This document shows, one piece after another, positions 8,960-54,479 of a DNA stretch of 64,000 nucleotides. The notes beneath the pieces were generated by a model. The model was not told where the DNA came from. It searched no databases and saw only the letters and a program-made list of their open reading frames with translations. Numbering within the stretch: the stretch's first letter is position 1; every line of letters begins with the position of its first letter. The stretch comes from Pseudomonas viridiflava (GTDB taxonomy: Bacteria > Pseudomonadota > Gammaproteobacteria > Pseudomonadales > Pseudomonadaceae). Where the stretch lies: the NCBI RefSeq assembly GCF_900589395.1, contig NZ_UUIS01000023.1, forward strand, positions 1-64,000. The letters run 5' to 3'. Both the position numbers and the translations under genes were made by a program.

Positions 8960-8981
8960 GAACTCAAGATACATTGAGTTC
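8960..8981 (+). terminator. Stem-loop after the lipoprotein gene
   Basis: Perfect 8-bp stem GAACTCAA/TTGAGTTC with a 6-base loop starting seven bases after the stop codon. The following TGTGTC is only weakly T-rich. Confidence 0.45.
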
Positions 8982-9067
8982 TGTGTCAGCGGGGTCAGTG
9001 ACAGTGAGTTCGAGATGACAGGGCTTGGGCGTGTCAGTAATGCCTTTCATTGAACCGGGTTGAAATC

Positions 9068-9457
9068 ATGATGCGATGGGTGGCGGTACTGGGCGCGGTC
9101 GGGTTCTCCCTGGCGGCGGCGGCGCAAGGTAAATACTCTCCGGCGTTTGATGCTTGTGTAGAGAAGTCTGAAGGTATTACCTATGAAATCAACGAATGCA
9201 ATAACAAGGAACTGGCGCTACAAAATACCCGCCTGAATGCGTCGTACAAGGCGGCGATGGGCGCACTGTCAGACGAGAAAAAAACGCAACTGCGTGATGC
9301 GCAACGGTTGTGGGTCAAGTACCGAGACGCCCATTGCTTCATGTATTACCACTTTTCAGGTGGCACCATGGATCAGATCAATGGCGCAGGCTGCGAGTTG
9401 ACCATGACCCTTGAGAGAACCGAAGCACTCAAATGGTTTGCCGAAACAGGTGAATGA
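9068..9457 (+). CDS. LprI-like (DUF1311) secreted protein
   Basis: About 129 residues with an N-terminal signal peptide (MMRWVAVLGAVGFSLAAAA, cleavage near AQG). The mature part has the DUF1311 pattern of the lysozyme-inhibitor LprI family: CVEKSEGITYEINECNNKEL, then LNASYKAAM, then LRDAQRLWVKYRDAHC, with four conserved cysteines likely forming two disulfides. It should be periplasmic. The precise role is unknown in Pseudomonas; inhibition of lysozyme is shown only for some relatives. ATG 9068 or 9071 is preferred to TTG 9050 because it gives a normal signal peptide. Confidence 0.75.
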   Translation: MMRWVAVLGAVGFSLAAAAQGKYSPAFDACVEKSEGITYEINECNNKELALQNTRLNASYKAAMGALSDEKKTQLRDAQRLWVKYRDAHCFMYYHFSGGTMDQINGAGCELTMTLERTEALKWFAETGE

Positions 9458-9629
9458 TCTGAACCCCCGGGTCTAGCGAACCGGGTAAAAGGGCTCATGG
9501 CTGGGCTGCACATTCATTGGCAATCGTACAGGTGTGCTATGGCGTGCTGTACAGGGTATGAGCGATTATCAATGTCAGCTGAGCGTTTGTCCGGTGCTAA
9601 TGGTCGGCAACGAGGTGGGGGCAATAACG

Positions 9630-10133
9630 GTGCATAAATTCGTTCAGGTTCTGGCGATTCTTTCTCCCCTTGTCATTGTTCCGAGCCAGGCAGTGGCAGC
9701 AATGCCTGACTGGTGGCTGATCTTCGGGAGTGGCGATCAACCCAAGCGGCAAGTCATGTATGCAGATGCTCTTTCTGTTGCGGACAGCCCCTCTGAATCA
9801 GGAACCGAAACCGCCCGTACAGTGGAGGTGGTGCAGGTGTTTGAAGACCAGGGCAAGCCTTCTTTTATCTGGTCCACGATCGCTTTCCAGTGTAAGGCTG
9901 GCCAGTATTGGGTAGACGTAGCCAAGGCAAAGAAGCGTTCAGGTGAGGTCGTCGAAGAACCGAAGAGTCGCCAATGGATGCCGGTAGCCCAAAGCGTTAT
10001 GCAGCGGCCCTATGATTTTGTGTGCAAGGCAAGCACACGGCGATCCAACAACATGATCAAAATCAACAATCCGCAGCTTATCGACACATTGGCGCAGTTT
10101 ACCTACGGTACATTTTGGGCAACCCAACAGTAG
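9630..10133 (+). CDS. Hypothetical exported protein
   Basis: GTG 9630, preceded by GAGGTGGGGG, gives a 167-residue protein with a signal peptide (HKFVQVLAILSPLVIVP, cleavage after AVA). The mature part begins MPDWWLIFGSGD and has YADALSV, VVQVFEDQGKPSFIW and FQCKAGQYWV, a pattern seen in small periplasmic proteins of unknown function that sense or report on surface stress. Two cysteines may pair. I cannot assign a role. Confidence 0.55.
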   Translation: MHKFVQVLAILSPLVIVPSQAVAAMPDWWLIFGSGDQPKRQVMYADALSVADSPSESGTETARTVEVVQVFEDQGKPSFIWSTIAFQCKAGQYWVDVAKAKKRSGEVVEEPKSRQWMPVAQSVMQRPYDFVCKASTRRSNNMIKINNPQLIDTLAQFTYGTFWATQQ

Positions 10134-38567: not shown

Positions 38568-39191
38568 TCAGGCGCCCACCTCGAAGATCACCCCTTCGAC
38601 CCCCACGATCTCCCCGCTGTTCGAATACAGCCCCACGCCTGTTTCGCAGACGTCCTTGATACGCCCGTCGGCGCAGCAGATCCGGTACCGCAACTGAAAC
38701 GGCTCATGCTTGAGCAACGCACATTGCACGCAGTACCAGACGTAGTCGGCGTACTCCTCCAGGATCAACGAGCCAAAGCTGTGTTCGCGCATCAGTTGCT
38801 CGGCCGAGTAGCCGGTCAGGTGCAGGCAGCCTTCGCTGACGTACTGCATGCGCCAGGCACGTACGTTGTCGCCCTTGTAGATCAGGGCAGGCAAATCATT
38901 GACCAGCCCGCTGACACTGACGCTGGCAGGCCGCTCAGTGAGCGTTATCGGTTCATGGCCTTGCTGCTGCGCTTCATGACGATGCATCCACGACGCCAGC
39001 TCCAGGCGTGAATGCAGATCGAATTTGCGCAGCAGGTTGCGCACATAAATCTTCACGGTCGCCTCGCTGATGCCCAATTCCCGGGCGATCTGCTTGTTGT
39101 TGTGCCCGGCGGTGATCAGGCCCAGGGTCTGTTTTTCGCGCTCGGTCAGCGACTGGGTTGCCGGCAGCGGCAAGGGCGCGGGGCGGGTCAT
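38568..39191 (-). CDS. LuxR-type regulator with C-terminal PAS domain
   Basis: A 207-residue protein in inverted domain order: the LuxR HTH comes first (residues ~14-75; LTEREKQTLGLITAGHNNKQ, IARELGISEATVKIYVRNLL) and a PAS domain follows (~95-207; MQYVSEGCLHLTGYSAEQLM, RYRICCADGRIKDV). ATG 39191 has GGAGGA 11 bases upstream; GTG 39197 is possible. It is divergent from the methylated-amine operon and is the likely regulator. The PAS may sense a small ligand or redox state. Confidence 0.82.
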   Translation of the reverse strand: MTRPAPLPLPATQSLTEREKQTLGLITAGHNNKQIARELGISEATVKIYVRNLLRKFDLHSRLELASWMHRHEAQQQGHEPITLTERPASVSVSGLVNDLPALIYKGDNVRAWRMQYVSEGCLHLTGYSAEQLMREHSFGSLILEEYADYVWYCVQCALLKHEPFQLRYRICCADGRIKDVCETGVGLYSNSGEIVGVEGVIFEVGA

Positions 39192-39374
39192 GTGCACGTG
39201 TGTCCTCCCGTCTTGTAAGTCTTCAGTTCCAGCAAGTTCCATGCCCTGTACCGTCGACTACGCCTTTGGGAGTAGCCCGTCTGGAGGATTGAGAGAACAT
39301 GCCTGATGGGAAATTATCTTGCTCATGGAGAAACAGCTCCGGGCAATCCTGCCTTCGTCATTGCGAGGCTCGAC

Positions 39375-39899
39375 ATGAACGACATCGCAGCGCAGCGCCA
39401 TACCAGTCTGCCGTATTACGACGTGCCGTCCGGCGAGCAGCGGCCTCTCCAGCGTGTGCTGGTGACGCAAGGGCAGGGCACCGCGTTAGCCGCCACCCTG
39501 CAAGCCGATTGCACTGCCGGCCTGACGCACTTGGGCCTGCCTGAGCACCGTGACCTGGTCACCTTGCAGCAGGCCCTGGCCGCACACCTGCACCACAGCC
39601 ATATTGGTACGCACCTGCATGTACAGGGCGACGAGGCGTTTCTCTGGGCCTTGCGCACCGTGGCGGCCGACGCCGGACTGCTGAGTGAGGAAATCACCCT
39701 GCACCTGGAAACGGCGGCTGCCCGCTCGGTGTTTTGCGTGCACTGCGCGCATGTGCAATGCGCCACCGACGCCGACCGGCACACCTGCTGCCAATGTGCG
39801 GTGGTGCTTGAAGTCCGGGCGCATTTTTCCCGGCGCCTGGGCGCGTACATCGGCGTCTGCGCCGATGCCGATCAGCCTTACGGGGAAGCACGTCCATGA
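39375..39899 (+). CDS. dmmA: Dimethylamine monooxygenase subunit DmmA-like protein
   Basis: A 174-residue protein matching the DmmA family: TSLPYYDVPSGEQRPLQRVL at the start and a Cys-rich C-terminal part (FCVHCAHVQCA, CCQCAVVLEVRAHFSRRLGAYIGVC). The cysteines may bind zinc or an iron-sulfur centre. It is thought to be a subunit of the dimethylamine monooxygenase with the reductase and the heme protein encoded next. Overlaps the next gene by four bases. GAGG precedes ATG 39375. Confidence 0.8.
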   Translation: MNDIAAQRHTSLPYYDVPSGEQRPLQRVLVTQGQGTALAATLQADCTAGLTHLGLPEHRDLVTLQQALAAHLHHSHIGTHLHVQGDEAFLWALRTVAADAGLLSEEITLHLETAAARSVFCVHCAHVQCATDADRHTCCQCAVVLEVRAHFSRRLGAYIGVCADADQPYGEARP

Positions 39900-40825
39900 G
39901 CCAGACCCTTACCGTACGGGTGGCCGAAACCCATCTGCTGACGCCGGTGGTGCGCGAGTTGCTGCTGGAGCCGGTCAGCGGCGCCTTGCCGGCCTTTTCA
40001 GCCGGCAGCCATGTGCAGGTGCACCTGCCCAATGGCCGGCGCAACGCCTACTCGCTGCTCAGTGATCCGGCCCAGCCGAGTCATTACCGCATTGCGGTGC
40101 GGCGTCAGCCACAGTCGCGCGGCGGTTCGCACTACATCCACGATCAGGTGCAGGTCGGTGACCGGCTGCAGATTTCACCCCCGGCCAACCTGTTCGCCCC
40201 GCACAGCCAGGCGCGCCTGCACCTGCTGATTGCCGTCGGCATCGGCATCACGCCGTTCATGGCCTATTGCGCCGAACTGCTGCGCCAGGGCCAGGCGTTC
40301 GAGTTGCACTATGCCTGCCGCCAAGGCTTCAGTGATGCCTACCTCGACACCCTGCGCGATCAACTGGGCGCACGCCTGCATGTCTACGCCAGCCCCATCC
40401 GGCGCCTGGACCTGGCCACCGTGCTGGGCAATCGCCCCTTGGGCACGCATGTCTATGCCTGCGGCCCGCAAACCCTGCTCGACACCCTGCGCGAACACAG
40501 CCAGGCGCTGGGCTGGCCAGCCGGTCGGGTGCACTGGGAAGCCTTCACGGCGCCGGCGCCGGGGTTGCCCTTTGCCGTGCACCTGGCGCGCAGCGGCCGG
40601 CAGGTGCAGGTCGGCGCCGAAGACAGCCTGCTCGAAGCGCTGGAGGCCGCCGGCGTCGAGGTGCCCAACCTGTGCCGCGGCGGGGTCTGCGGCCAGTGCC
40701 AGACCGCCTATCTACAAGGCGCGGTCGAGCACCGCGACCTGTTTCTGAGCGACAGCGAACGCGCCACCCACTTGATGCCCTGTGTGTCACGCAGTTGCGG
40801 CGACGCACTGGTGCTCGATATCTGA
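39896..40825 (+). CDS. dmmB: PDR/VanB-family reductase, dimethylamine monooxygenase subunit
   Basis: A 309-residue electron-transfer protein: flavin-binding NAYSLLSDPAQ, NAD-binding LIAVGIGITPFMAYCAE, and a C-terminal plant-type 2Fe-2S domain (NLCRGGVCGQCQ, last Cys in LMPCVSRS). It would deliver electrons from NAD(P)H to the heme N-demethylase subunit. Coupled to dmmA by an ATGA overlap. Confidence 0.82.
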   Translation: MSQTLTVRVAETHLLTPVVRELLLEPVSGALPAFSAGSHVQVHLPNGRRNAYSLLSDPAQPSHYRIAVRRQPQSRGGSHYIHDQVQVGDRLQISPPANLFAPHSQARLHLLIAVGIGITPFMAYCAELLRQGQAFELHYACRQGFSDAYLDTLRDQLGARLHVYASPIRRLDLATVLGNRPLGTHVYACGPQTLLDTLREHSQALGWPAGRVHWEAFTAPAPGLPFAVHLARSGRQVQVGAEDSLLEALEAAGVEVPNLCRGGVCGQCQTAYLQGAVEHRDLFLSDSERATHLMPCVSRSCGDALVLDI

Positions 40826-40841
40826 TTGCGGAGATGTGCCC

Positions 40842-41855
40842 ATGACCCTTGCCTTCAAGACGCCGCAAACCTACTGCGACGATTTCAGCTTTCGCAACAG
40901 CCCGCAGGCCATCGCGCGCTTTCCGTTTCCGTTTCCTGAAGACCAGTACATGTACTCGGTGAACATTGAGCCTGCGCTGTCGCGTGACCCAGGCTCGATC
41001 TACGAGCACCGCTTCGACATCGACGAGCATTACCTGTCCGAGACCGCCGAGCGTGCCCGCGTGTTGGCCCGTGACCCCGGCCGCTGCCTGGTCATGCCGC
41101 ACATGACCCCGGCCGCCTGGGACATGGTCCAGGTGCTGATGGAGCACCTGTCCACCGACTACCCGCAGCACTTTCGCCTGCAGCGCGACGGTACGGCCTG
41201 GCACTGGCAGAACCTGGCCATGGGCATCGACCAGCACTTTACCTTTGGCAATGCGCAGACCCTGCCGTGCGAGCCGCTGGAGTACATCACCCGCCAGGTA
41301 CAAGGCGATTTCGCCGTGCTCGACCAACGTGATGGCGACCTGTTCATGGACGCCGGTATGGTCACCTGTCCAGCCGACTGGTCACTGCGTTTCGATGCCG
41401 GCATGAGCTTCAAGCAGTGGCATGCGCCGGTGCCGATGGCGCACCAGATGGGCATTTTCGACCGGGCCCTGAAATACCTGCTGAACGTGCAGGTCGGCCA
41501 GCCGGTGCGCCGGCTGAACTGGACCCTGACCCTTAACCCGCGCCTGGATTCCTCGCCGGAAACCTTTCATGAATGGGGCAGCGACCGGGGCAAGGTCACC
41601 GCCGAGAACGTCGGGCGCCTGGTGCACCTGCGTGTCGAGTTGCAACTGATGATGCGCCTGCCGCGCTCCAATGCCTTGATGTTCGGTATCCGCACCTACC
41701 TGATCAGCCTGGACGAACTGGCCACCCGACCGGCCTGGGCGCAGCGCCTGCACCGGGTGATCCGCGACCTGCCCGATGCCATCGCCGACTACAAGGGCAT
41801 GACCCGCTACCGACAGACCCTGATCGACTGGCTGCGCCGTTTCGACCCTGTTTGA
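40842..41855 (+). CDS. Heme-dependent oxidative N-demethylase-like protein (DUF3445)
   Basis: A 337-residue DUF3445 protein: FPFPFPEDQYMYSVNIEP at the start, LVMPHMTPAAWDMVQVL-like and QHFRLQRDGTAWHWQN motifs, and RQTLIDWLRRF at the end. DUF3445 proteins are described as heme-dependent oxidative N-demethylases and as the catalytic subunit of dimethylamine monooxygenase, removing a methyl group as formaldehyde. Together with dmmA and dmmB it would turn dimethylamine into methylamine. CGGAG lies nine bases before ATG 40842. Confidence 0.82.
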   Translation: MTLAFKTPQTYCDDFSFRNSPQAIARFPFPFPEDQYMYSVNIEPALSRDPGSIYEHRFDIDEHYLSETAERARVLARDPGRCLVMPHMTPAAWDMVQVLMEHLSTDYPQHFRLQRDGTAWHWQNLAMGIDQHFTFGNAQTLPCEPLEYITRQVQGDFAVLDQRDGDLFMDAGMVTCPADWSLRFDAGMSFKQWHAPVPMAHQMGIFDRALKYLLNVQVGQPVRRLNWTLTLNPRLDSSPETFHEWGSDRGKVTAENVGRLVHLRVELQLMMRLPRSNALMFGIRTYLISLDELATRPAWAQRLHRVIRDLPDAIADYKGMTRYRQTLIDWLRRFDPV

Positions 41856-41883
41856 ACGCCGACTCCCCAAGAGGATTTTTCCC

Positions 41884-43014
41884 ATGACCCATTCATGGCG
41901 CACCCCTGCGCTTCGCGAACGCCACCTGGCCCTGGGCTCGAACCTGGAAGACTGGAACGGCATGCCCACCGCCTGGACCTACGCCAGCGACCTGGCCGAT
42001 CACCATGAGGCCATTCGCACCCGCGCCGGGCTGATGGATGTCTCGGGCCTCAAGAAAGTCCATTACGTCGGTCCGCATGCCGAAAGCCTGTTGCAGCAGG
42101 CCACCACCCGCGACATTGCCAAGCTGTACCCCGGCAAATCGGTGTACGCCTGCATGCTCGACGACGATGGGCATTTTGCCGACGACTGCATTGTTTACCG
42201 CACCGGCCCCAATGCCTTCATGGTGGTCCATGGCGCCGGCAGCGGCCATGAACTGCTGGTGCGCTCGGCGCAAGGCCGGCAGGTGGCGGTGCTGTTCGAC
42301 GACGACCTGCACGACCTGTCGCTGCAAGGGCCGCGGGCGGTGGATTTTCTCGCCGAGCATGTGCCGGGCATTCGCGACCTGCCTTATTTCCACCACCTGC
42401 AGACCCGGCTGTTCGACCGCCCGGTGATGATCTCGCGCACCGGCTACACCGGCGAGCGCGGCTACGAGATCTTCTGCAAGGCCGCCGACGCGCCCTTGAT
42501 CTGGGACGGCATCCTGGAAAAAGGCCGGGACCTGGGGATCATCCCGTGCGCCTTCACCGCGCTGGACTGGCTGCGGGTCGAAAGTGCCTTGCTGTTCTTC
42601 CCCTACGACAACTCACAGATGTACCCCTTCGCCGACCAGAAGGCCGGCGACAGCCTCTGGGAGCTGGGCCTGGATTTCACCGTGTCACCCGGCAAGCAAG
42701 GGTTTCGCGGCAGCGAGGAGCATTACCGGCATCAGGGCCGCGAGCGCTTCAAGATCTTTGGCGTGCTGCTCGACGGTGAAGTGGCGCCCCAGGCCGGCGA
42801 CAGTCTGTGGTTCGAAGGCCGCCAGGTCGGGCTGATCACCTGCGCCATGTTCTCGCGCCTGACCGGCCAGTCCATGGCCATTGCCCGGGTCGAGCCGTTG
42901 ATAGCCGAGCAGGGCGTGGCGCTCGAGGTGCGCGGCAGCCTGCACACCCGCGCCATCAGCCACCGCCTGCCTTTCGATGACCCTGAGAAGAAAAAGCGCA
43001 CGGCCAAGGGCTGA
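41884..43014 (+). CDS. GcvT-like aminomethyltransferase-family protein
   Basis: A 376-residue tetrahydrofolate-binding protein of the GcvT family: RAGLMDVSGLKKVHYVGP, MISRTGYTGERGYEIF and RVESALLFFPYD are characteristic. It lacks the fused oxidase domain of dimethylglycine or sarcosine dehydrogenases. In this operon it probably captures the formaldehyde released by dimethylamine demethylation as methylene-THF. AGAGG stands before the ATG. Confidence 0.82.
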   Translation: MTHSWRTPALRERHLALGSNLEDWNGMPTAWTYASDLADHHEAIRTRAGLMDVSGLKKVHYVGPHAESLLQQATTRDIAKLYPGKSVYACMLDDDGHFADDCIVYRTGPNAFMVVHGAGSGHELLVRSAQGRQVAVLFDDDLHDLSLQGPRAVDFLAEHVPGIRDLPYFHHLQTRLFDRPVMISRTGYTGERGYEIFCKAADAPLIWDGILEKGRDLGIIPCAFTALDWLRVESALLFFPYDNSQMYPFADQKAGDSLWELGLDFTVSPGKQGFRGSEEHYRHQGRERFKIFGVLLDGEVAPQAGDSLWFEGRQVGLITCAMFSRLTGQSMAIARVEPLIAEQGVALEVRGSLHTRAISHRLPFDDPEKKKRTAKG

Positions 43015-43053
43015 GCGGCTTCAAGACCTGAGTGCCACAAGAGAGCCCATGCC

Positions 43054-43914
43054 ATGACCACCCCGCATTACATCCTCAACGTCAGTTGCCCGGCCACCTC
43101 GGGCATTGTCAGCGCCGTGACCACCTACCTGGCCGGGCGTGATTGTTACCTGAGCGAGCTGGCGCAGTTCGACGACGAGCACACCGGGCGCTTTTTCATG
43201 CGCGCGGTGTTTCGCTTCAATGCCGGCGCCGTCGACGATATCCAGGCGCTGCGCCAGGGCTTCGACGACATCGCAGTGCCGTTTGATATGCGCTGGGCGC
43301 TGCACGCCGGTGACCAGCCGCTGCGGGTGTTGTTGATGGTCAGCAAGTTCGACCATTGCCTGGCCGACCTGCTGTATCGCCATCACAAGGGCGAGCTGAA
43401 CATGCACATCACCGCCATCGTCTCCAATCACCTGGACCTGCGTCCGATGGCCGAGCGCGAAGGCATCCGCTTCGTCTACCTGCCGGTGACCCGGGACACC
43501 AAGGCGCAACAGGAAGCCGAGCTGATGAGCATCGTCGAGCAGACCGGCACGGACCTGGTGGTGCTGGCGCGCTACATGCAGATTCTCTCCGACGACCTAT
43601 GCCAGAAGCTGACCGGGCGGGCGATCAATATCCACCACTCGTTCCTGCCCGGCTTCAAGGGCGCACGGCCTTACCACCAGGCCTATGAACGCGGTGTGAA
43701 GCTGATCGGCGCCACCGCCCACTACGTTACCGGCGACCTGGACGAAGGCCCGATCATCGAGCAGCAGGTGCAGCGGGTCGAGCATGACCACAGCCCCGAC
43801 GACCTGGTCGCCATCGGTCGCGACACCGAAACCGTGGCGCTGTCGCGGGCGCTCAAGTACCACCTGGAGCACCGCGTGTTCATCAACCACGACAAGACAG
43901 TGATCTTTCGATGA
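43054..43914 (+). CDS. purU: Formyltetrahydrofolate deformylase
   Basis: A 286-residue protein with an N-terminal ACT domain ([20 protein letters not shown]) and a formyltransferase-like catalytic domain ([36 protein letters not shown]) holding the Asn-His-Asp triad. It hydrolyses 10-formyl-THF to formate and THF, recycling the folate loaded by the demethylases. Methylated-amine gene sets commonly include one; a housekeeping purU probably exists elsewhere. Confidence 0.9.
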
Positions 43915-43943
43915 GCCCCCTTTCTGACTGCGGAGAATCGAAC

Positions 43944-45311
43944 ATGAACACACGTGTGGCCATCATTGGTGCCGGCCCTTGCGGCCTGGCGCAGCTACGG
44001 GCTTTTCAATCGGCGGGCGCAGCCGGTGCCCCGATTCCCGAGCTGGTGTGCTTCGAGAAGCAGGCCGACTGGGGCGGCATGTGGAACTACACCTGGCGCA
44101 CGGGCCTGGACGAGCACGGCGAGCCGGTGCACGGCAGCATGTACCGCTACCTGTGGTCCAACGGCCCCAAGGAGTGCCTGGAGTTCGCCGACTACAGCTT
44201 CGACGAGCACTTTGGCCGGCCGATAGGTTCGTATCCGCCGCGCGAGGTGCTCTGGGACTACATCAAGGGGCGGGTCGAGAAGGCCGGGGTGCGCGACCAC
44301 ATCCGCTTCAACACCGTGGTGCGCGACGTGACCTTCGATGAAGCGCAGGCGCAGTTCACCGTCACTGTCCATGATCACGGCAAGGACCTGACCTACAGCG
44401 AAGTCTTCGATTATGTGGTGGTGGCCAGCGGGCATTTTTCCACGCCGCAGGTGCCGCATTTTCCGGGCTTCGAGACCTTTGCCGGGCGGGTGCTGCACGC
44501 CCACGATTTTCGCGATGCCCTGGAGTTCAAGGACAAGGACGTGCTGATCGTCGGCAGCAGCTACTCGGCCGAAGACATCGGTTCGCAGTGCTACAAGTAC
44601 GGCGCACGCTCGATCACCAGTTGCTACCGCAGCGCCCCGATGGGCTACAAATGGCCGGCCAACTGGGAAGAAAAGCCGCTGCTCACCCACGTGCAGGGCA
44701 ATCGGGCGTTCTTCATCGACGGCACCAGCAAGCCGGTCGACGCGGTGATCCTGTGCACCGGCTACAAGCACCATTTTCCATTCCTGCCCGAAGCCCTGCG
44801 GCTCAAGACCGGCAATCGCTTGTGGCCGCTGAACCTGTACAAAGGCGTGTTCTGGGAAGCCAACCCGCGGCTGATTTACCTGGGCATGCAGGACCAGTGG
44901 TACAGCTTCAATATGTTCGATGCCCAGGCCTGGTACGCCCGCGACGTGATTCTGGGGCGCATTGAGCTGCCTGACGCCGGGCGCCGGTGCGCCGAGAACC
45001 TCGCCTGGCGCCAGGAAGAAGAAACCCTGGAAACCGCGCAACAGATGTTCGAGTTCCAGGGCGAGTACATCCGCCAGCTGATCGAAGCCACCGACTACCC
45101 CAGCTTCGACATTGCCCAGGTGAACCAGACCTTCCTGCAATGGAAGAAGGACAAGTACGAAGACATCATGGGCTATCGCAACCACTGCTACCGCTCGCTG
45201 ATCACCGGCACCCTGGCCACCGTGCACCACACCCCATGGCTCGATGCCCTGGACGACTCGCTGGCCGCCTACCTGGGCGACGACGGCTTCGACCGCCTCA
45301 GGTCCGCGTAG
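43944..45311 (+). CDS. tmm: Trimethylamine monooxygenase-like flavin monooxygenase
   Basis: A 455-residue class B flavin monooxygenase. FAD motif [20 protein letters not shown] signature [18 protein letters not shown] motif [13 protein letters not shown]. The segment [20 protein letters not shown] and the [17 protein letters not shown] block are hallmarks of bacterial Tmm, which oxidises trimethylamine to its N-oxide. CGGAG precedes ATG 43944. With the Tdm-like fusion next door the call is strong, though purified relatives also oxidise other small amines and sulfides. Confidence 0.88.
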
Positions 45312-45328
45312 CACCGTATCGACACCCC

Positions 45329-45356
45329 GTGTGGGAGGGGGGTTGCCCGCGATGGC
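45329..45356 (+). repeat. Single Pseudomonas-type REP sequence
   Basis: GTGTGGGAGGGGGGTTGCCC followed by GCGATGGC matches the common Pseudomonas REP palindrome, lying just after tmm. No second copy is paired with it. Confidence 0.6.
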
Positions 45357-45495
45357 TGCAGCCCGGATGCAACAGATGTGTCGTTTTTACTGGCCCTGTC
45401 GCCAGCAGAGCCCCCCACCTTGACTGAGGATCTCTGGCAGGTCGCGTCGGTGGGGCCAGCCAATGGACCGTTATGTATCTGCCACGAGGTTACCC

Positions 45496-47841
45496 ATGAT
45501 TGCACCTGTCACCAGCCGGCCGCTTGAGCCGGCCCTGTTTGCCCGCACGCGGGGTGTCGAGCGGCACCGGGTCGCGCCGGGCGGGCTGACGGTGGTCGCC
45601 TTGCAGGCCGGCGACCGTTTGCAGGTCATCGACCTGGAGGGCGACCAGCCCGCGCAGTTGCTGGCTTTTCTCGACGACGGTCGCGATGCGCTGTCAGCCC
45701 TGGGCCTGCAACGCACGCGCGGCGCGGACTTTATCGGCCAGCAACTGCGCCCGTCCAGCCGCGAAGCACGACACGTCGTCGACGGCCTGGCCCGGCGTGG
45801 CGTGGACAGTCGGCATCTACCCGATGCGGCGAGCCTGTGGCCGGTGGGCATGCCGGCCGGTTTCCGTCACGCGATGACCGCCTGTAGCGACGTGTTGGTC
45901 ATCGTCGCCGCCCCGGGCGGGCGCACGGCGGTGGACGGGCAGGGCAGGGCCAGCGAGTTGCGCCTGGTGATCGAACGGGCCCATCCCGCCGCGCTCTGGG
46001 TGCCCCCCTTGCCGGCACCGCTGGGCGAGGTGATCGACGAGTTCACCCTCACTCCTGGCACCGCACGCGACTACAGCGTGCGCGCCGGGCAGTTCATTCA
46101 GGTGCTCGATGTTGCCGGGCGCCAGTGCTCGGACTTCATTGCCTTTGACCGGCGCGGGCTGGATGCCGGGCGCGAGATCGACCTGGACCCGACGGTCACG
46201 CGCACCCTCAACGGCAGCGCCTATCCGGGGCCCGGCCTGTTCAGCCGGTTTTACGACCGCCACATGCAGCCGATGCTGGAAGTGGTGCGCGACACGGTGG
46301 GCCGCCACGACACCTTCGCCCTGGCCTGCACCGCACGCTACTACGAGTCCCAGGGCTACTTCGGCCATGCCAACTGCAGCGACAACCTCAGCCGCGCCAT
46401 GGCCGCCCATGGTGTGCAGGGGCGGCCGGGGTGGCCGGCGATCAACTTTTTCTACAACACAGGCATCGATGCCCACCAGCACCTGACCCTCGACGAGCCC
46501 TGGTCACGCCCCGGCGACTATGTGCTGATGAAAGCGCTGACCGACCTGGTGTGCGCCAACAGCAGTTGCCCGGACGACATCGACCCGGCCAATGGCTGGC
46601 AGCCCACCGATATTCACATTCGCGTGTATTCAGAAAAGGAGCGCTTCAGTATCGCCATGAGCACACGACAGACCGCCGATGCCGACCCGGTGCTGACCCG
46701 CGAAAGCGGCTTTCATCCGGCCACCTCACGCCTGACCCGGCAGTTCGTCGATTACCGCGGGTTCTGGACCCCGACCCGCTTCGATGGCTACGGCACCCTG
46801 GAGGAGTACCATGGCTGCCGCGAGCGGGTGGCGGTCATGGACTTGTCGGCCCTGCGCAAGTTCGAGGTGCTGGGCCCCGACGCCGAAGCCTTGCTCGACC
46901 ATTGCCTGACCCGCGACGTGCGCAAGCTCGCCATCGGCCAGGTGGTGTATTCGGCCATGTGCTATGAGCACGGCGGCATGCTCGACGACGGTACCTTGCT
47001 GCGCCTGGGCCAGGATGCCTTTCGCTGGATCGGCGGCGAAGACCATGCCGGCATCTGGCTACGCGAGCAGGCCGAAAGGCTCGGCATGAAGGTGTGGATC
47101 AAGAGCGCCAGCGATCAGATCCACAACATCGCCGTGCAAGGCCCGTTGAGTCGCGAACTGCTCGGGCAGATGGTCTGGAGCCCCGGCACCCAGCCGGCCC
47201 TGGCCGATCTTGGCTGGTTCCGCTTTCTGACCGGGCGCCTGGACGATCACAACGGCCCGGCACTGATGGTCTCGCGCACCGGCTACACCGGTGAACTGGG
47301 CTTTGAGGTGTGGTGCCACCCCGATGACGCCGTGCAGGTCTGGGAGCGGCTCTGGCAGCTCGGCCAGCCGCTGGGGCTGGTACCGCTGGGCCTTGAAGCC
47401 CTGGACATGCTGCGCATCGAGGCCGGGCTGGTGTTTGCCGGCTACGAGTTCGACGATCAGACCGACCCGTTCGAGGCCGGCATTGGCTTTTGCGTACCGC
47501 TCAAGAGCAAGGCGGCCGATTTCATCGGACGTGAGGCCTTGCTGCGCCGCAGTGCCCAGCCCCGCCAGCAACTGGTGGGGCTGGTGCTGGAAGGCAACGA
47601 AGTGGCGGCGCACGGCGACTGCGTACGCATGGGGCGGGCCCAGGTCGGGGTCATCACCAGTGCCACTCGCTCGGCGGTGCTGGGCCGCAACATCGCCCTG
47701 TGCCGGCTGGACATCGCGTATTGCGCACCGGGCACGGCGCTGGAAATCGGCAAGCTCGACGGCCAGCAAAAGCGTATTCGTGCGCATGTGGCCGCCAGCA
47801 CCGTGGCTTATGACCCACAGAAGAGCCGGGTTCGCAGCTGA
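45496..47841 (+). CDS. tdm: Trimethylamine N-oxide demethylase-like fusion (DUF1989-GcvT)
   Basis: A 781-residue protein. Residues ~180-395 form a DUF1989 domain with candidate zinc ligands C211 (RQCSDF), H291/C294 (FGHANCSD) and C353/C358 (VCANSSCPD); residues ~415-781 are a GcvT-like folate domain (VMDLSALRKFEVLGPD, MVSRTGYTGELGFEVW, LRIEAGLVFAGYEF). This fusion is the architecture of Tdm, which splits TMAO into dimethylamine and formaldehyde and passes the latter to THF. The first ~165 residues look like a second, decayed DUF1989 copy. ATG 45496 has GAGG six bases upstream; 45463 is the alternative. Confidence 0.87.
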   Translation: MIAPVTSRPLEPALFARTRGVERHRVAPGGLTVVALQAGDRLQVIDLEGDQPAQLLAFLDDGRDALSALGLQRTRGADFIGQQLRPSSREARHVVDGLARRGVDSRHLPDAASLWPVGMPAGFRHAMTACSDVLVIVAAPGGRTAVDGQGRASELRLVIERAHPAALWVPPLPAPLGEVIDEFTLTPGTARDYSVRAGQFIQVLDVAGRQCSDFIAFDRRGLDAGREIDLDPTVTRTLNGSAYPGPGLFSRFYDRHMQPMLEVVRDTVGRHDTFALACTARYYESQGYFGHANCSDNLSRAMAAHGVQGRPGWPAINFFYNTGIDAHQHLTLDEPWSRPGDYVLMKALTDLVCANSSCPDDIDPANGWQPTDIHIRVYSEKERFSIAMSTRQTADADPVLTRESGFHPATSRLTRQFVDYRGFWTPTRFDGYGTLEEYHGCRERVAVMDLSALRKFEVLGPDAEALLDHCLTRDVRKLAIGQVVYSAMCYEHGGMLDDGTLLRLGQDAFRWIGGEDHAGIWLREQAERLGMKVWIKSASDQIHNIAVQGPLSRELLGQMVWSPGTQPALADLGWFRFLTGRLDDHNGPALMVSRTGYTGELGFEVWCHPDDAVQVWERLWQLGQPLGLVPLGLEALDMLRIEAGLVFAGYEFDDQTDPFEAGIGFCVPLKSKAADFIGREALLRRSAQPRQQLVGLVLEGNEVAAHGDCVRMGRAQVGVITSATRSAVLGRNIALCRLDIAYCAPGTALEIGKLDGQQKRIRAHVAASTVAYDPQKSRVRS

Positions 47842-47928
47842 CACCTCAGTGTCATCCACAGGCGCCTGTGCAGGACGGCATATGTCTTGCACGGCGCCTT
47901 TGTCGTTTCATGGATAGGAGATTGGCCG

Positions 47929-48915
47929 ATGTGGTTTTCCAACGCTTCTCGTGGCCTGGCCAATGAACTTGGCCTGTGGCTGGATCGCCTGCTGGACGAG
48001 CAGGGCAACCCCGTACCGGCCACTGCGCCGCTGCGCGAGCACCCGCACTTGCAGGGCCGCCTGCAGCGCCTGCACCAGCGCTGGGCCGAACTGCAGCACA
48101 TTCGCCAGGAGGCCCAGGCGCGCCCGGCACCGCCCTGCACCGAGGCCCAGTACGCTGAGCTGCAACGCCAGGTGGCGCAAGGCCTGGCTCACATTGCTGA
48201 TCTTCAGGCCCGGCAGCACAGCGACGCCGCCCGGCTGGCGCAGTTGAGCGCCGAGCAGGCCGGCTGGGAGCAGGAGCGCCAGGTCTGGGAAGTCACCCGC
48301 AGCAGCCTGACTGAAGGCTGCTGGTCGATGAACGTGGTGGATGGCAACCCTGATCACCCGCACAATCTGATTCGCTGGTCGGAGCAGTTCCGCCAGTTGA
48401 TCGGCCATGACGCCCACTCGTTTCCCGATGGCTGGGACAGCTACTTTGCCGTGGTCAACAGCGATGACGTCAAGCAGGTCATGCAGGCTTTCGACCAGGC
48501 GATGAAGGCGCCGGGCGGCGATGACGGTTATGTCGTCGAATACCGCATGCGCCACAAGACCCGGGGTGAGTTGTGGTTTCGCGAGCGCGGCCGCAGCCTG
48601 CGTGACAGCCAGGGCCGGCTGCTGTATGTGGCCGGTGCAGTAAGGGAAATCAGTGATGAAAAGACCGCCGCCAGCCTGCACGCACGCGAGCAGGCCAGTA
48701 TCCAGGCCACCTACGAGAACATTGCGCGCATTGCGGCGGTGATTCGCGGCATCGCCGAGCAGACCAATCTGCTGGCACTCAACGCCGCCATTGAAGCTGC
48801 CCGGGCCGGTGAGCAGGGCAGGGGGTTTGCCGTGGTCGCCGATGAAGTGCGCAACCTGGCCCAGCGCACCCAGGAGTCGGTGCAGCAGATCCAGTCCATG
48901 CTGCAACAGCGCTAA
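47929..48915 (+). CDS. Soluble PAS chemoreceptor-like protein, short signalling domain
   Basis: A 328-residue protein with no membrane segment. After an Ala/Gln/His-rich coiled coil (residues ~35-120) comes a PAS domain (~140-250; [39 protein letters not shown]), then a short MCP hairpin (~265-328) with the tip [20 protein letters not shown]. The signalling domain ends at QSMLQQR, so most of the adaptation region is absent. It resembles Aer2/McpB-like soluble PAS receptors in outline. It may tie methylated-amine use to taxis. AGGAGAT precedes ATG 47929. Confidence 0.82.
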
Positions 48916-48969
48916 GCGATACCTGCCGCCAAGGCGGCACGCTGTCACGCAACAAACAGGGGACCGGTG

Positions 48970-49082
48970 TGTAGGAGCGCGCTCTGCCCGCGACCGGCTG
49001 CGTCAGCAGTCGTAAATTTTCAGCGTTTTCGAGATTTCTGCGAGCGCTGCGCACTCGGTCGCGGGCAGAGCGCGCTCCTACA
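48970..49082. repeat. REPIN-like element 2
   Basis: Begins TGTAGGAGCGCGCTCTGCCC and ends with its inverse; the outer 27 bp of the two arms match perfectly. The core, read on the minus strand, corresponds to one unit of the 40-bp repeat in element 1 (AAATCTCGAAAACGCTGAAA). Confidence 0.8.
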
Positions 49083-49092
49083 GTGGATGTTC

Positions 49093-49123
49093 ATGCCCAT
49101 CAGGTGTTGTGCCTGATGGGCAT
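49093..49123 (-). terminator. Strong hairpin after the amt gene
   Basis: Perfect 12-bp stem ATGCCCATCAGG/CCTGATGGGCAT with a 7-base loop, twelve bases beyond the minus-strand amt stop. No T-run follows on that strand, so it may act by RNA structure or be Rho-assisted. Confidence 0.5.
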
Positions 49124-49134
49124 AGTGACCCCCC

Positions 49135-50454
49135 TCAATTCGAATACTTGTAGCCCACCTCGCCATGCGCGGACAGGTCCAGCCCGTCGACCTCGGCGTC
49201 TTCATCGACGCGCAGCCCACCGCACAGCACCGCTGTGATCTTGAACGCCACCAGGCTGCTGAGCGCCGAGAACAGGATGCTGAACAGCAGCGCGCCGCCA
49301 TTGACCAGCAACTGGCTGGCCAGGTCGCGGCCTTCGGCAAAACCCTGGCCGCCCAGAGCGGTCATCGCGAACACCGGGGTCAGCAGCCCGCCCAGGATGC
49401 CGGCCACGCCATGCACGCCAAACACATCGAAGGCGTCGTCCAGGCCCAGCATCGGCTTGAGTTTTTCCACCGACCAGACGCACAGAGGGCCTGCAATAAA
49501 GCCCAGCACGATGGCGCCCATGGGCCCGACAAAACCGCACGCGGGGGTGATCGCTACCAGCCCGGCAATGGAGCCGGACACTGCACCGAACAGGCTCGGC
49601 CGGCCACGGTGTTTCCACTCCACCAGCATCCAGCCCAGCGCACCGGCGCAACTGGCCAGCATGGTGTTGACCATCACCAGCATGGCAAAGCCATTGACCG
49701 CCAGCACACAGCCGCCGCAGAACCCCAGCCAGCCGACCCACAGCAACGAGCCGCCGGTCATGGTCATGGTCATGTTGTGCGGCGCCAGCGCCGAGGTGCC
49801 GAAACCGCGACGCCGGCCGATCAGCCAGGCGCCAACCAGCGAGGCGATACCGACGTTCAGGTGCACCACGTTGCCCCCGGCAAAATCCTGCACGCCCAGG
49901 TTGAACACCCAGCCGCCGCCCCAGGCCATGTGCGCCATGGGGATGTAGTTAAGGGTGATCCACAGCGCCATGAACACCATCACGGCGGCAAACTTCATGC
50001 GCTCGGCAAACGCCCCGACAATGATGGCCGGCGTAATGGCGGCAAACAGCAGCATGAACAGAAAGTACAAATACTCAGGAATAGTGCCCACCACGGTATG
50101 AATGGTCACACCTTGCAAGAACACTTTATCCAGGTTGCCGATCACGGCATTCATCGAGCCGCCATCGCCAAACACCAGGCTGTAGCCATACACGGCAAAG
50201 ATGATCGACATCAAGGCGGCGGTGCAGAACACCTGCATCATCACCGAGAGCACGTTCTTGGTCCTGGCCATGCCGCCATAGAACAACGCAAGACCGGGCA
50301 AGGTCATCAGCAACACAATCAGCGAGCACAGCGCCACAAAGGCGGTGTCGCCGCCATTGATGACCGGTGCGACTTCATCGGCATACCCTGAAGAGCAAGC
50401 CATAACAAGGGGGAGGCCGCATAGGGTGCGGCCTGGGCGTGCGAGGCGGATCAT
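49135..50454 (-). CDS. amtB: Ammonium transporter
   Basis: A 439-residue inner-membrane protein with a cleavable signal (LCGLPLVMACSSGYA) and eleven hydrophobic helices. Amt motifs include DTAFVALCSLIVLLMTLPGL, FYGGMARTKNV, and the conserved pore His pair in FGVHGVAG and later segments. It brings in ammonium under nitrogen limitation. GGAGAT lies eight bases before the ATG and a sigma-54-type promoter stands upstream. No glnK gene adjoins it. Position beside the methylated-amine operon fits a role in nitrogen supply. Confidence 0.9.
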   Translation of the reverse strand: MIRLARPGRTLCGLPLVMACSSGYADEVAPVINGGDTAFVALCSLIVLLMTLPGLALFYGGMARTKNVLSVMMQVFCTAALMSIIFAVYGYSLVFGDGGSMNAVIGNLDKVFLQGVTIHTVVGTIPEYLYFLFMLLFAAITPAIIVGAFAERMKFAAVMVFMALWITLNYIPMAHMAWGGGWVFNLGVQDFAGGNVVHLNVGIASLVGAWLIGRRRGFGTSALAPHNMTMTMTGGSLLWVGWLGFCGGCVLAVNGFAMLVMVNTMLASCAGALGWMLVEWKHRGRPSLFGAVSGSIAGLVAITPACGFVGPMGAIVLGFIAGPLCVWSVEKLKPMLGLDDAFDVFGVHGVAGILGGLLTPVFAMTALGGQGFAEGRDLASQLLVNGGALLFSILFSALSSLVAFKITAVLCGGLRVDEDAEVDGLDLSAHGEVGYKYSN

Positions 50455-50586
50455 GGCTGATAATCTCCAACGGTCTGAATAGGGGCCGGAATGCCCAGGC
50501 AGGCCAAGGCATGACGACGCGCTGAACTACGCCGGAAGGATGAAAATGCTCATTCCTTTCGGGTAATTTACTTTCCTGTTGGGAAT

Positions 50587-50602
50587 AGCAAATAGCTTGC
50601 CA
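50587..50602 (-). promoter_or_regulatory. Sigma-54 promoter of amtB
   Basis: On the minus strand TGGCAAG-CTAT-TTGCT matches the -24/-12 consensus TGGCACG-N4-TTGCW with one change. It lies 133 bp upstream of the amtB ATG, as expected for NtrC-dependent nitrogen control. The 496-bp divergent gap also holds GTGCA-AAACG-TGCAC (50723-50737) and no gene. Confidence 0.65.
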
Positions 50603-50722
50603 GTGTCTTTGCTTGGCAGCCCTTGGGTCCTTGGTGATCCGCGCAACTGCATGCACACGCCGAAGGCATCTGATGATTTATTCAGCATAAAGAACAAGGA
50701 TTGAAACCGGGCCCTTTGAAGT

Positions 50723-50737
50723 GTGCAAAACGTGCAC
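50723..50737. promoter_or_regulatory. Inverted repeat, candidate enhancer site
   Basis: GTGCA-AAACG-TGCAC has perfect 5-bp arms and lies about 120 bp upstream of the sigma-54 promoter of amtB. Position suits an enhancer-binding protein such as NtrC, but the half-site orientation differs from the usual TGCACC-N-GGTGCA, so the assignment is weak. Confidence 0.3.
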
Positions 50738-50950
50738 TGTTAACGCTCACGCTGCTGAAAACAGCGCCGTTCTGGTTATAGCCATAAAGGGTTATTGGCA
50801 GTGATGCCTCGATAGGCTAGCGATGGCGCAACGCGTGTGAAAAGTGCCCAAGGCCTTGCCGTACGTACTGGGGTGCGCAACGAAGATCAGCAACGCTACA
50901 CTGTCCGGCCTCAGGCCAGTGCCTGTTCATTCACCGGACACGAGATTTCC

Positions 50951-51589: not shown

Positions 51590-53989
51590 TTACGGCAACT
51601 CCAGCAACTGACTCAGGGCCTGGAACAGGTCCTGGGCATTCACCGGTTTCTGCAGTACCAGGCTGCCCGGCAGGTCCAGGCCGTGCAGTTCGGCATAGCC
51701 GGTCAGGAACACCACCGGCAGGTTCGCAAAGCGTTCGCGTGCCGCATGGGCCATTTGCGCGCCGTTGAAGCCTGGCATCGCGAAGTCGGTGAGCAGCAGG
51801 TCGACCTGGTCGTCGAGCATTTCCAGCGCCTGTTCACCGCTGCTGGCCTCGCGCACTTTGAAACCCTGCACCCGCAACATGTCGCCGATCAGGTCGCGCA
51901 CCGGGTCATCGTCGTCGACCAGCAGGATAGAGCGGTCCTGGCCGTTGCCGGCCGGCGTCAGATGGGCACGGCCCGACGCCTGCGGTTGGGGCTGCTGCTG
52001 GACAGCGGCCTCGCTCGTGCGCTGCACGGCCGGCAGGTAGACGCTGACTTCGGTGCCGCGCCCCGGGGCGGTGTCAATGCTCACGCCACCGCCCGATTGT
52101 TTGGCAAAGCCAAACACCTGGGCCAGGCCCAGGCCCGATCCTTTGCCGATGTCCTTGGTCGTGAAGAACGGCTCGAAGACCTTGGCCAGCACGTCCTGGC
52201 TCATCCCCGAGCCGGTGTCGCGGATCGACAGCACCACATAATCGCCGCAATCGGGGTCTTCAGGGCGCTGTGGCCGTTCGCTGACCTGGGTGTTGCGCGT
52301 GCACAGGGTCAACTGGCCGCCATTGGGCATGGCGTCGCGGGCGTTGATCGCCAGGTTGAGAATGATCATCTCGGTCTGGGTCGGGTCGGTCAGCGCCTGC
52401 CAGAGGTCCTCGGACAGGTCCAGACGCACCAGGATATTGCCGCCCAGGGTGCGGCGCAGCAGCTCTTCAAGTCCGCGCAGCGTGTCGTTGAGGTGCAGCG
52501 CCACCGGCTCCAGGCGCTGGCGCCGCGAGAACGCCAGCAATTGCGAAGTGAGCTTGGCGCCGCGCTCGCCGGCTTCGCGAATGTGCTTGAGACGCCGGGT
52601 GGCTTTTTCCAGGTCCTGCTTGCTCAGGTCGCGCTCCAGAAAACTGGAGCCGGTAATGATCACGGTCAGCAGGTTGTTGAAGTCATGGGCAACGCCTGCG
52701 GTCAACTGGCCGACCGCTTCCAGGCGTTGCATCTGTTGCAGCGCCGCCTCGATGCGCTCGCGCTCGGCAATCTGGTCGCGCAGGCGGGTGTTGGCTTCGG
52801 CCAGTCCCTGTGTGGCTTCACGCTCGCTGGTAATGTCGCGGGCCACCACATAAAGCAGCGTGTCTTCGGGTACCACCACCCAGGACAGCCAGCGCTGGCT
52901 GCCACTGGCATGACGAATGCGTCCGGTAAAGCGCACGCTGCTGTGGTTCTGGGCCAGGATCGCAAGCTCGTTCAGGAAGGCGTCACGGTCCTCGTCGGGC
53001 AGCAGTGTCATCAGTGAGGTCTGGGCCAGGGCCTGGCGCGTAAAGCCCAAGGCATTTTCCCAGGCCGGATTGAGCGCCACCGGGGTCAGGTCCTTGTTGA
53101 ACACGCCCAGCAGATCCTGGGATAACTCCCACGCACGGTCGCGCTCGCGGGTGCGGCGCTCGACCCGCTCACCGAGCATTTCGTTGAGCTGCTTGAGTGC
53201 CTGGGTGGCCTGGCGCTGCTGATGAATGTCCTGCAACACCCCGGAAAAACGCACGCAGTGGCCATCCACCACCCGGGCCTGGCCGCTGCTGAGCAGCCAG
53301 CGCGGTTCTTTGCCTGCGATCATGCAGCGAAATTCCATTCGGTAGCGGCCATCGCTGTCGGGCGCCATGGCGCGTTCCACGGCCTGGCGCACGGCCGGTT
53401 CGTCATCGGCATGGATGCCGGCATAGAACAGGTCGATGTGCATCTCGGTGTTCGACGGCAAGCCGAACAGGGCCTTGCAACGCTCATCCCAGATCAACTG
53501 GTCTTCGGTGGGCCGATAATCCCAGGTGCCCATGCCGGCGGCATCGATGGCGATCCGGGCGCGGGCTTCGACATCGGCCAGGGCTTCTTCGGCACGGCGC
53601 CGGCGCTGGCGTTCCTGGACTTCGGTCAGGGCGCGCTTGACGGCCTTGGGCAGCAGTGACAGGTTCTTTTTCAGAATGTAGTCGGTGGCGCCCAGGCGGA
53701 TCATTTCCACGGCGTGTTCTTCGCCGTAAACGCCGGAGAGAAAAATGAATGGTGTATCAGGGGCCAGGCGCTGGGCAATGGCCAGCACCTCGCTGCCCGA
53801 CGAGCCGGGCAGCACGCAGTCGCACAGGATCAGGTCGAAACGGTGCTCTTGCAGAGCCTGTTGCGCGCCGACATGGTCGTAGACCTGGCGGGCCTGGATC
53901 AGCAGATCACCACGTTCCAGGCGCATCAGGGTCAGCTCGGCATCCATCGAGCTGTCTTCGACTATCAGAAGTTTTATCGGCTTGGACAA
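51590..53989 (-). CDS. Hybrid histidine kinase: REC-PAS-PAS-HK-REC
   Basis: A 799-residue cytoplasmic kinase. REC1 (residues ~5-125) has phospho-acceptor D57 (LILCDCVLPG). Two PAS regions follow (~140-260 and ~285-395), then HisKA with H435 (TAGVAHDFNNLLTV), an HATPase domain (NLAINARDAMPNGG, DTGSGM, GSGLGLAQVFGF) and REC2 with D735 (LLTDFAMPGF). It has no membrane segment. It lies 13 bp behind the response regulator and phytochrome genes on the same strand, so it probably works in the same light or redox phosphorelay. Confidence 0.88.
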   Translation of the reverse strand: MSKPIKLLIVEDSSMDAELTLMRLERGDLLIQARQVYDHVGAQQALQEHRFDLILCDCVLPGSSGSEVLAIAQRLAPDTPFIFLSGVYGEEHAVEMIRLGATDYILKKNLSLLPKAVKRALTEVQERQRRRRAEEALADVEARARIAIDAAGMGTWDYRPTEDQLIWDERCKALFGLPSNTEMHIDLFYAGIHADDEPAVRQAVERAMAPDSDGRYRMEFRCMIAGKEPRWLLSSGQARVVDGHCVRFSGVLQDIHQQRQATQALKQLNEMLGERVERRTRERDRAWELSQDLLGVFNKDLTPVALNPAWENALGFTRQALAQTSLMTLLPDEDRDAFLNELAILAQNHSSVRFTGRIRHASGSQRWLSWVVVPEDTLLYVVARDITSEREATQGLAEANTRLRDQIAERERIEAALQQMQRLEAVGQLTAGVAHDFNNLLTVIITGSSFLERDLSKQDLEKATRRLKHIREAGERGAKLTSQLLAFSRRQRLEPVALHLNDTLRGLEELLRRTLGGNILVRLDLSEDLWQALTDPTQTEMIILNLAINARDAMPNGGQLTLCTRNTQVSERPQRPEDPDCGDYVVLSIRDTGSGMSQDVLAKVFEPFFTTKDIGKGSGLGLAQVFGFAKQSGGGVSIDTAPGRGTEVSVYLPAVQRTSEAAVQQQPQPQASGRAHLTPAGNGQDRSILLVDDDDPVRDLIGDMLRVQGFKVREASSGEQALEMLDDQVDLLLTDFAMPGFNGAQMAHAARERFANLPVVFLTGYAELHGLDLPGSLVLQKPVNAQDLFQALSQLLELP

Positions 53990-54002
53990 CTTCCAGGCTC
54001 CG

Positions 54003-54470
54003 TCAGTTATTGCGTCGACGATTCAGACGCAACGACCCCGGTGGAGGTTCATTAAGCACGGCCCAGAAAATACCCAGGTCGGAAATCGCCGCGACGAATT
54101 CCTTGAATTCGACCGGCTTGACCACGTACGCATTGACGCCCAGCTCGTAGGCCCGCAACAGGTCGGGCTCTTCGCGCGAGGAGGTCAGCATCACCGTGGG
54201 GATACTGCGCAGCTCAGGGGTGTCGCGCACCACCTTGAGCACTTCCAGGCCATCGACCTTGGGCAGCTTGAGGTCCAGCAGCAGGACCGCCGGGTTACCG
54301 TCGTCACGGGCGGCGAAGGCATGGCGGCGCAACAGGTAGTCCAGAGCGTCGGCACCGTCACGCAGCACAATGACTTCGTTGGCCAACTGGCTGCGCTCCA
54401 GCGCGACAAGCGTCAACTCCAGGTCCCTGGGGTTGTCTTCGACCAACAGAATGGGTTTGAGCATCTTCAA
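54003..54470 (-). CDS. Single-domain response regulator (Rcp1-like)
   Basis: A 155-residue receiver with no output domain. Phospho-acceptor D66 (VLLLDLKLPKVDGLEVL), acidic pocket E11/D12 (LLVEDNPRDLEL), and switch Thr/Ser plus Lys in MLTSSRE and YVVKPVEF. Such receivers are the usual partner of bacteriophytochromes. Sits between the phytochrome and hybrid-kinase genes with 9- and 13-bp gaps, so it is one operon. Confidence 0.9.
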   Translation of the reverse strand: MKMLKPILLVEDNPRDLELTLVALERSQLANEVIVLRDGADALDYLLRRHAFAARDDGNPAVLLLDLKLPKVDGLEVLKVVRDTPELRSIPTVMLTSSREEPDLLRAYELGVNAYVVKPVEFKEFVAAISDLGIFWAVLNEPPPGSLRLNRRRNN

Positions 54471-54479
54471 CGAGTTCCA

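Follow-up and report, generated by a model that had tools for sequence, protein, structure and literature searches.

In Ruegeria pomeroyi DSS-3, the passages of PMC5520151 cited here assign the degradation of trimethylamine (TMA) to tmm, tdm, dmmDABC, gmaS-mgsABC and mgdABCD, with a GcvT-domain DmmD accompanying DmmABC. The TMA-degradation locus analysed here, located in a 64,000-nt stretch of Pseudomonas DNA (hereafter the window), comprises seven collinear open enzyme genes on the forward strand (39306-47841), in the order dmmA-B-C-D-purU-tmm-tdm, facing a divergently oriented gene for a helix-turn-helix (HTH) protein with a C-terminal PAS domain. Together with a second cluster elsewhere in the genome, it encodes the same enzymes as R. 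pomeroyi for each step. The same two-cluster split is described in Aminobacter sp. NyZ550 (cluster I, tmd-tmm-dmmDABC; cluster II, mgsABC-gmaS-mgdABCD), a different bacterium with another gene order, in which the genes are linked to metformin breakdown, and the cited part of a report on Aminobacter sp. MET lists DmmABCD, N-methylglutamate (NMG) genes and PurU (PMC11446756, PMC9800807). The haem-dependent oxidative N-demethylase (HODM; PDB 5LTE, 5LTH and 5LTI) provides a further counterpart, to which the window alpha subunit aligns over its full length, with no gap or missing part. We take P. mendocina to be the source of 5LTE.

The differences lie in gene order, in the candidate regulator and possibly in uptake. 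In the cited passages on R. pomeroyi, the pathway is regulated by the AraC-type proteins TmaR and TmoR, TmaR has homologues in some Gammaproteobacteria, and a trimethylamine N-oxide (TMAO) transporter, tmoXWV, is present (PMC13390433). The candidate regulator here is instead the HTH-PAS protein, and no ABC transporter was found among the 30 window open reading frames (ORFs) scanned with Pfam, no genome search for one having been made. NarL/FixJ two-component systems have a similar HTH, and loci related to the window encode such a system, with a kinase of the HisKA_3 type and a regulator that joins a receiver to an HTH; the window regulator differs in having neither receiver nor kinase and in carrying a PAS domain fused C-terminally to the HTH. 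Among the matches listed in a literature search of titles and abstract starts, with few subscription journals covered, there was no publication on the HTH-PAS protein, on the corresponding three-gene system or on control of these genes by any two-component or PAS regulator.

We read the locus as a methylated-amine catabolic operon controlled by a one-component regulator that has taken the place of a phosphorelay, and give this reading, regulator included, a probability of about 0.8. The enzymes are mostly ordinary, assigned with high confidence to a pathway of an already known kind. The regulator would be a new variant, with a well-supported evolutionary pattern and a putative mechanism.

A putative fused regulator in place of a three-gene signalling system

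The regulator gene falls inside the interval treated by the preliminary description, which omits it, and nothing else in the locus is as unusual. Its translation probably starts at a GTG near 39197 or an ATG near 39191. A Pfam scan gave no Response_reg match in the product, and its best NCBIfam match, NarL, reached 66 bits, far below the model cut-off of 250. The LDLHMPG stretch of the response regulator in locus L012 is likewise present in none of 17 fused proteins.

Related loci often carry, at the same place and on the same strand, genes for a HisKA_3 histidine kinase, a receiver-HTH response regulator and a PAS-PAS protein (the trio). One or the other arrangement was found in 66 loci, the window included: 17 with the fusion, counting the window and the divergent locus L026, 49 with the trio and none with both. 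Eight trio loci are duplicates, without which 17 fusion and 41 trio loci remain, and in eight of the stretches fetched from the genus the regulator sequence is identical to one from a named Pseudomonas record.

The same exclusivity was observed in a sample of 249 genomes of the window's genus, of which 31 (about one eighth) encode tdm at E 1e-200 or better. A trio-type kinase (E 1e-110 or better) was detected in 26 genomes, all of them tdm-positive, and a full-length fusion in six, namely five tdm-positive genomes and G244. All 31 tdm-positive genomes thus have either the trio (26) or the fusion (5), vs one of the 218 tdm-negative genomes (G244), and no genome has both. In the tdm-positive genomes, tdm has the kinase or the fusion on its own contig, at a distance of 1.7-6.3 kb for the kinase and 5.3-7.1 kb for the fusion. 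These counts leave aside kinase-profile matches of E about 1e-61 to 1e-54, which fall in frames of more than 600 residues in many genomes, and a partial fusion-profile match in the tdm-negative genome G184 (E 9e-26). Relocation of the kinase within the window's own genome (G000; 6.19 Mb, 96 contigs, 99.99% complete by computed estimate), rather than its loss, was also considered and set aside, as no trio-type kinase match of E 1e-35 or better was found there among the best 8 of 84 first-look candidates, which were the ones scored.

In G244, the fusion stands beside dmm genes in the absence of tdm at E 1e-200 (L102, G244:C1:3681000-3700900), which points to dmm as the primary target of the regulator. 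L102 is possibly a version of the system for dimethylamine (DMA) only.

Both regulator types face the same dmm promoter

A conserved region separates the regulator and dmmA genes, and an nhmmer profile of it was built from 15 fusion loci. Each of the 25 trio loci in which the regulatory genes adjoin dmmA (21 without duplicates, none of them a training row) had one match in the regulator-dmmA gap, with E values from 9e-21 to 1e-6, and the fusion locus L102, also absent from the training rows, matched at E 8e-13. A weak match before tmm in L022 (E 1e-4) was not counted, this being a cut contig in which only the response regulator was found. Since the sigma-70 match alone is no better than chance (one found, 1.7 expected), the evidence for the promoter is its conservation. 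The strongest argument that the fusion has assumed the role of the trio is that this one promoter lies opposite regulators of both kinds.

Within the region, an inverted repeat has a dyad symmetry of 0.63, vs a mean of 0.26 (standard deviation 0.11) over 681 placements in a 37-row alignment; when two mismatches are allowed, its pattern also matches one other place in the window, at chance level. Its 7-2-7 layout presumably resembles that of NarL sites. We predict that the HTH-PAS protein binds the conserved region at 39232-39317 and most likely thereby controls expression of the operon.

Probable course from trio to fusion

In a midpoint-rooted tree of 57 rows, built on the HTH and the last PAS domain (support given as bootstrap/SH-aLRT), 16 of the 17 fusions form one clade (100/99) nested in the clade of dmm-linked trios, with the trios L035 (95/78), L009/L012 (97/90) and L034 (99/93) as its successive sisters. 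The other main clade (100/100) consists of trios and L026. The order of events, with the trio first and the fusion later, is therefore well supported, a phosphorelay having apparently been reduced to a one-component regulator. The opposite course, an ancestral fusion split into a trio, is disfavoured by the same successive sisters, which, the tree being midpoint-rooted, amounts to support and not proof. The ancestral kinase, response regulator and PAS-PAS protein would have been replaced in this lineage by a single protein, formed when the HTH of the response regulator was joined to the last PAS domain and the receiver, first PAS domain and kinase were lost.

L026, from Pokkaliibacter, has, upstream of tmm-tdm, a regulator gene (L026:1340-2239) whose product places a pair of HTH domains before the PAS domain, and sits in the other main clade on a long branch (1.05). 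It looks like a second, independent collapse, in this case of a tmm-linked trio, with the proviso that the kinase could lie elsewhere in that genome. Gain and loss of signalling complexity have been discussed for Campylobacterota, in an account whose cited part contains no such collapse (PMC9239204). The relatives of the window thus offer a natural before-and-after pair, with a phosphorelay or one fused protein facing the same promoter, in which the usual story of a simple regulator giving rise to a two-component system becomes testable in reverse.

Enzyme genes and the predicted pathway

The genes named in the preliminary description are all present where it placed them and match their family profiles (Table 1), and the seven enzyme genes indeed share one transcription direction. 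Scores above the curated cut-offs were obtained for Tmm, Tdm, PurU and the DmmA domain. Tmm also matches solved structures (6HNS, 878 bits; 2VQ7, 795 bits), as does Tdm, which aligns with TMAO demethylase 9Q59 along residues 26-792 (861 bits). Tmm carries the flavin-containing monooxygenase (FMO) fingerprint at residue 190 and the nucleotide-binding motifs GAGPCG at 20 and GSSYSA at 215; we take the fingerprint, FxGxxxHxxx(Y/F), and two such motifs to be marks of Tmm. The dimethylamine monooxygenase/HODM set is complete, the DmmA, reductase, DUF3445 alpha and GcvT genes standing together. The reductase has phthalate dioxygenase reductase 2PIA as its best solved chain (210 bits), and the alpha subunit matches HODM chain 5LTE with 683 bits over residues 1-336 of 337.

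The GcvT-like gene, considered as an additional demethylase, was rejected in that role, corresponding to dmmD in the R. pomeroyi naming, where this is the folate-domain gene Spo1579 (PMC5520151). The DUF3445 gene is then dmmC, the only name left by the other dmm assignments. According to the cited passages of PMC5520151, dmmABC suffices for DMA demethylation in Escherichia coli and dmmD is required for growth on either TMA or TMAO, and for this reason we regard the GcvT-like gene as part of the enzyme system. The start of dmmA is probably at 39375 and not at 39306, because the conserved promoter runs through the latter position, as seen by comparison with L003. That of dmmC, likewise judged by comparison, is probably at 40842 and not at 40782, where a longer ORF begins.

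The strong family matches and the relatives with solved structures lend good support to the route proposed earlier, from TMA through TMAO and DMA to monomethylamine (MMA) with folate capture. Tmm would oxidize TMA to TMAO, and Tdm would convert TMAO to DMA, placing a one-carbon unit on tetrahydrofolate. DmmABC, the HODM, would demethylate DMA oxidatively to MMA. The GcvT-like DmmD would assist in loading the formaldehyde on folate, and PurU would release formate. The TMA oxidation by Tmm and the haem binding and DMA demethylation by HODM are predictions.

Table 1. Features of the methylated-amine locus and its surroundings in the window
Feature	Coordinates	Strand	Evidence
Regulator, LuxR/NarL-type HTH (30-85) and C-terminal PAS_3 (134-219)	38568-39242	-	PF00196 71 bits; PF08447 46 bits
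Conserved divergent promoter region	39232-39353	+	nhmmer 101 bits (window is one of 15 training rows)
GCAAGTTCCATGCC box	39232-39245		promoter region
Inverted repeat TACGCCT-TT-GGGAGTA	39259-39274		promoter region
-35-like TTGAGA	39289-39294		spacing to -10-like element 17
-10-like AATTAT	39312-39317		
dmmA, DmmA-family subunit of dimethylamine monooxygenase	39306-39899	+	NF041259 94 bits, cut-off 60
dmmB, FAD/2Fe-2S reductase subunit	39896-40825	+	Fer2 and DmmA-like_N domains
dmmC, DUF3445/HODM alpha, haem-dependent oxidative N-demethylase	40842-41855	+	PF11927 251 bits, cut-off 25
dmmD, GcvT-like folate-binding protein	41884-43014	+	PF01571 204 bits
purU, formyltetrahydrofolate deformylase	43054-43914	+	TIGR00655 325 bits, cut-off 286
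tmm, flavin-containing trimethylamine monooxygenase	43911-45311	+	NF058570 831 bits, cut-off 675
tdm, TMAO demethylase (DUF1989 and GcvT)	45463-47841	+	NF053776 1146 bits, cut-off 1100
PAS_3 and partial MCP signalling domain protein	47887-48915	+	directly after tdm, frequent neighbour
amt, ammonium transporter family	49135-50454	-	TIGR00836 403 bits, cut-off 343

The pathway had been expected to end at methylamine unless further genes lay elsewhere, and the suggested genome search for gmaS and mgsABC located them. A GmaS-type gene lies on another contig of G000 (C62:165161-166465; 664 bits, cut-off 469.6), in a locus (L091) in which mgsC, mgsB and mgsA lie on the gmaS strand. The opposite strand carries an XRE-cupin regulator gene, purU, folD and four sox-type genes, arranged as mgdABCD would be. 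The mgs genes were assigned from domain types (GATase, GXGXG and Glu_synthase) and the mgd genes from sox-type subfamily matches below the model cut-offs, with order and adjacency supporting both. The second PurU is 77% identical to that of the window. A dead end at methylamine is thus rejected, the NMG branch being encoded elsewhere in the genome, where GmaS, MgsABC and MgdABCD would take MMA to ammonium and methylene-folate. The XRE-cupin regulator gene stands between gmaS and purU (L091:11751-12368).

Occurrence in the genus

Above its cut-off, gmaS was found in 59 of the 249 genomes, comprising all 31 tdm-positive and 28 of the 218 tdm-negative ones. PF11927 occurs in 49 genomes, and in its dmmC-type form (at least 240 bits) in 30 of the 31 tdm-positive genomes and in one of the 218 others; the exception among the tdm-positive genomes, G133, has a completeness of 88%. 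Historically, it is fair to describe such modules as known chiefly from marine bacteria and methylotrophs, yet tdm is present in 31 of the 249 genomes sampled from this genus, and the solved HODM alpha subunit 5LTE is a close relative of the window protein. A pathway of that reputation, complete to ammonium, is encoded in about one eighth of the genomes sampled, and named candidates can now be put forward for the protein that regulates the use of methylated amines in Pseudomonas.

Alternative explanations

Several observations weigh against control of the operon by a fused successor of the trio. The direction comes from a tree with a midpoint root. Placing the root within the fusion clade would invert it, at the price of deriving the trios on either side of the deepest split from the fusion. 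The enzyme trees alone show no single origin of the fusion, since a tree of dmmB+C+D (quick method) needs two changes, with L024 unresolved, and a tree of tmm+tdm interleaves fusions and trios. At E 0.01, the promoter profile has no match in the 24 trio loci that do not adjoin dmmA, so that it marks the dmm promoter and not every target of the regulator family, nor does it match L026. With a score of 0.68, a dyad spanning the -10 region surpasses the inverted repeat, and the NMG cluster has a regulator gene of its own. Removal of the receiver could, moreover, simply leave a constitutive activator. In NarL-type regulators the receiver usually restrains the HTH, and its absence from the HTH-PAS protein is what would be expected if the enzymes were as named and the protein were a constitutive or vestigial activator, freed by the loss of the receiver, whose PAS domain only dimerizes. 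The AlphaFold model (mean predicted local distance difference test, pLDDT, 67) has low confidence between HTH and PAS, with residues 91-118 under 50, which also fits that idea. Many PAS residues are nonetheless invariant in nine aligned fusions, and the ratio of non-synonymous to synonymous substitution rates, 0.10-0.23 against four relatives, indicates purifying selection on the whole fusion gene. We consider a constitutive or vestigial protein doubtful.

It is unlikely, for its part, that the fused protein is an incidental neighbour of a promoter answering to another protein, such as an AraC-type TmaR or a nitrogen regulator. TmaR is the master regulator in the cited account of R. pomeroyi (PMC13390433), and there is more than one conserved box in the promoter region; against this stands the presence of trio or fusion in all 31 tdm-positive genomes, each time within about 7 kb of tdm, and in one of the 218 tdm-negative genomes. 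No AraC domain was found among the scanned proteins of the window and L091, a subset of their ORFs, and no search aimed at TmaR was made in the genome. Tmm-family flavoproteins are promiscuous and also oxidize other small nucleophiles, and the retention of regulator and dmm genes without tdm in G244 would suit a cluster that serves DMA or another N-methyl compound, with Tmm and Tdm acting mainly on other substrates. We regard this as very improbable given the curated equivalog cut-offs that both enzymes pass, the adjacency of tmm and tdm to each other, and often to the DMA enzymes, in related loci, and the presence of gmaS in every tdm-positive genome.

Possible sensing

A CxxC pair (YCVQC) is present in the PAS domain of 16 of the 17 fusions, missing only in L026, vs none of the 49 trio PAS proteins at that place; three trio ORFs carry CxxC elsewhere. 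Among the trio kinases, 48 of 49 have CxxC (all except L054), and the five examined appear soluble, with a highest 19-residue hydropathy of 1.5. A thiol, metal or iron-sulfur (Fe-S) sensing role may have moved from the kinase into the PAS domain, which is only a suggestion. Taken together, the trio of soluble CxxC-bearing kinase, response regulator and PAS-PAS protein might have collapsed once in Pseudomonas, keeping the old operator, and again in Pokkaliibacter as an HTH-HTH-PAS protein, with sensing shifted from the kinase to the CxxC of the fusion PAS domain and perhaps a redox, metal or Fe-S signal tied to the oxygen-consuming, formaldehyde-releasing enzymes; we put this combined account forward tentatively, with the odds against it in all its parts at once. 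Foldseek matched many PAS domains, the FAD-binding PAS of NifL first, which does not settle the cofactor. A metal site in the PAS domain was considered and set aside, the AlphaFold model being too weak to judge it.

Neighbouring genes

Over about 12 kb (window 38570-50612), the locus is 96.6% identical to Pseudomonas ovata F51, and the host, a Pseudomonas of the soil type, is therefore a close relative of P. ovata. The dmm/tmm/tdm set recurs jointly in many Pseudomonas loci, and so the grouping is more than chance. In P. ovata F51, about 6.3 kb (L003:12415-18746) separate the amt region from the next matching stretch, vs only about 0.3 kb in the window (50612-50894).

An Amt gene had been placed close by, and amt does lie downstream, in the opposite orientation. 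Many related loci encode, near tdm, another Amt-family protein (e.g. L013:13721-15073), which shares about 26-30% identity with the window Amt and in some of them stands beside one closer to the latter; a methylammonium role is possible for it. The PAS_3 protein encoded after tdm matches the MCP signalling profile at positions 21-95 of 172, and its type scores above 300 bits in 24 of 35 loci; it possibly links methylated-amine metabolism to chemotaxis. Further along the window, genes for a PAS hybrid kinase, a single receiver and a bacteriophytochrome-type kinase lie in a row on the reverse strand (51590-56729). G+C content is 0.49-0.54 at positions 1-4000 and 8001-10000, vs 0.57-0.66 elsewhere in the window.

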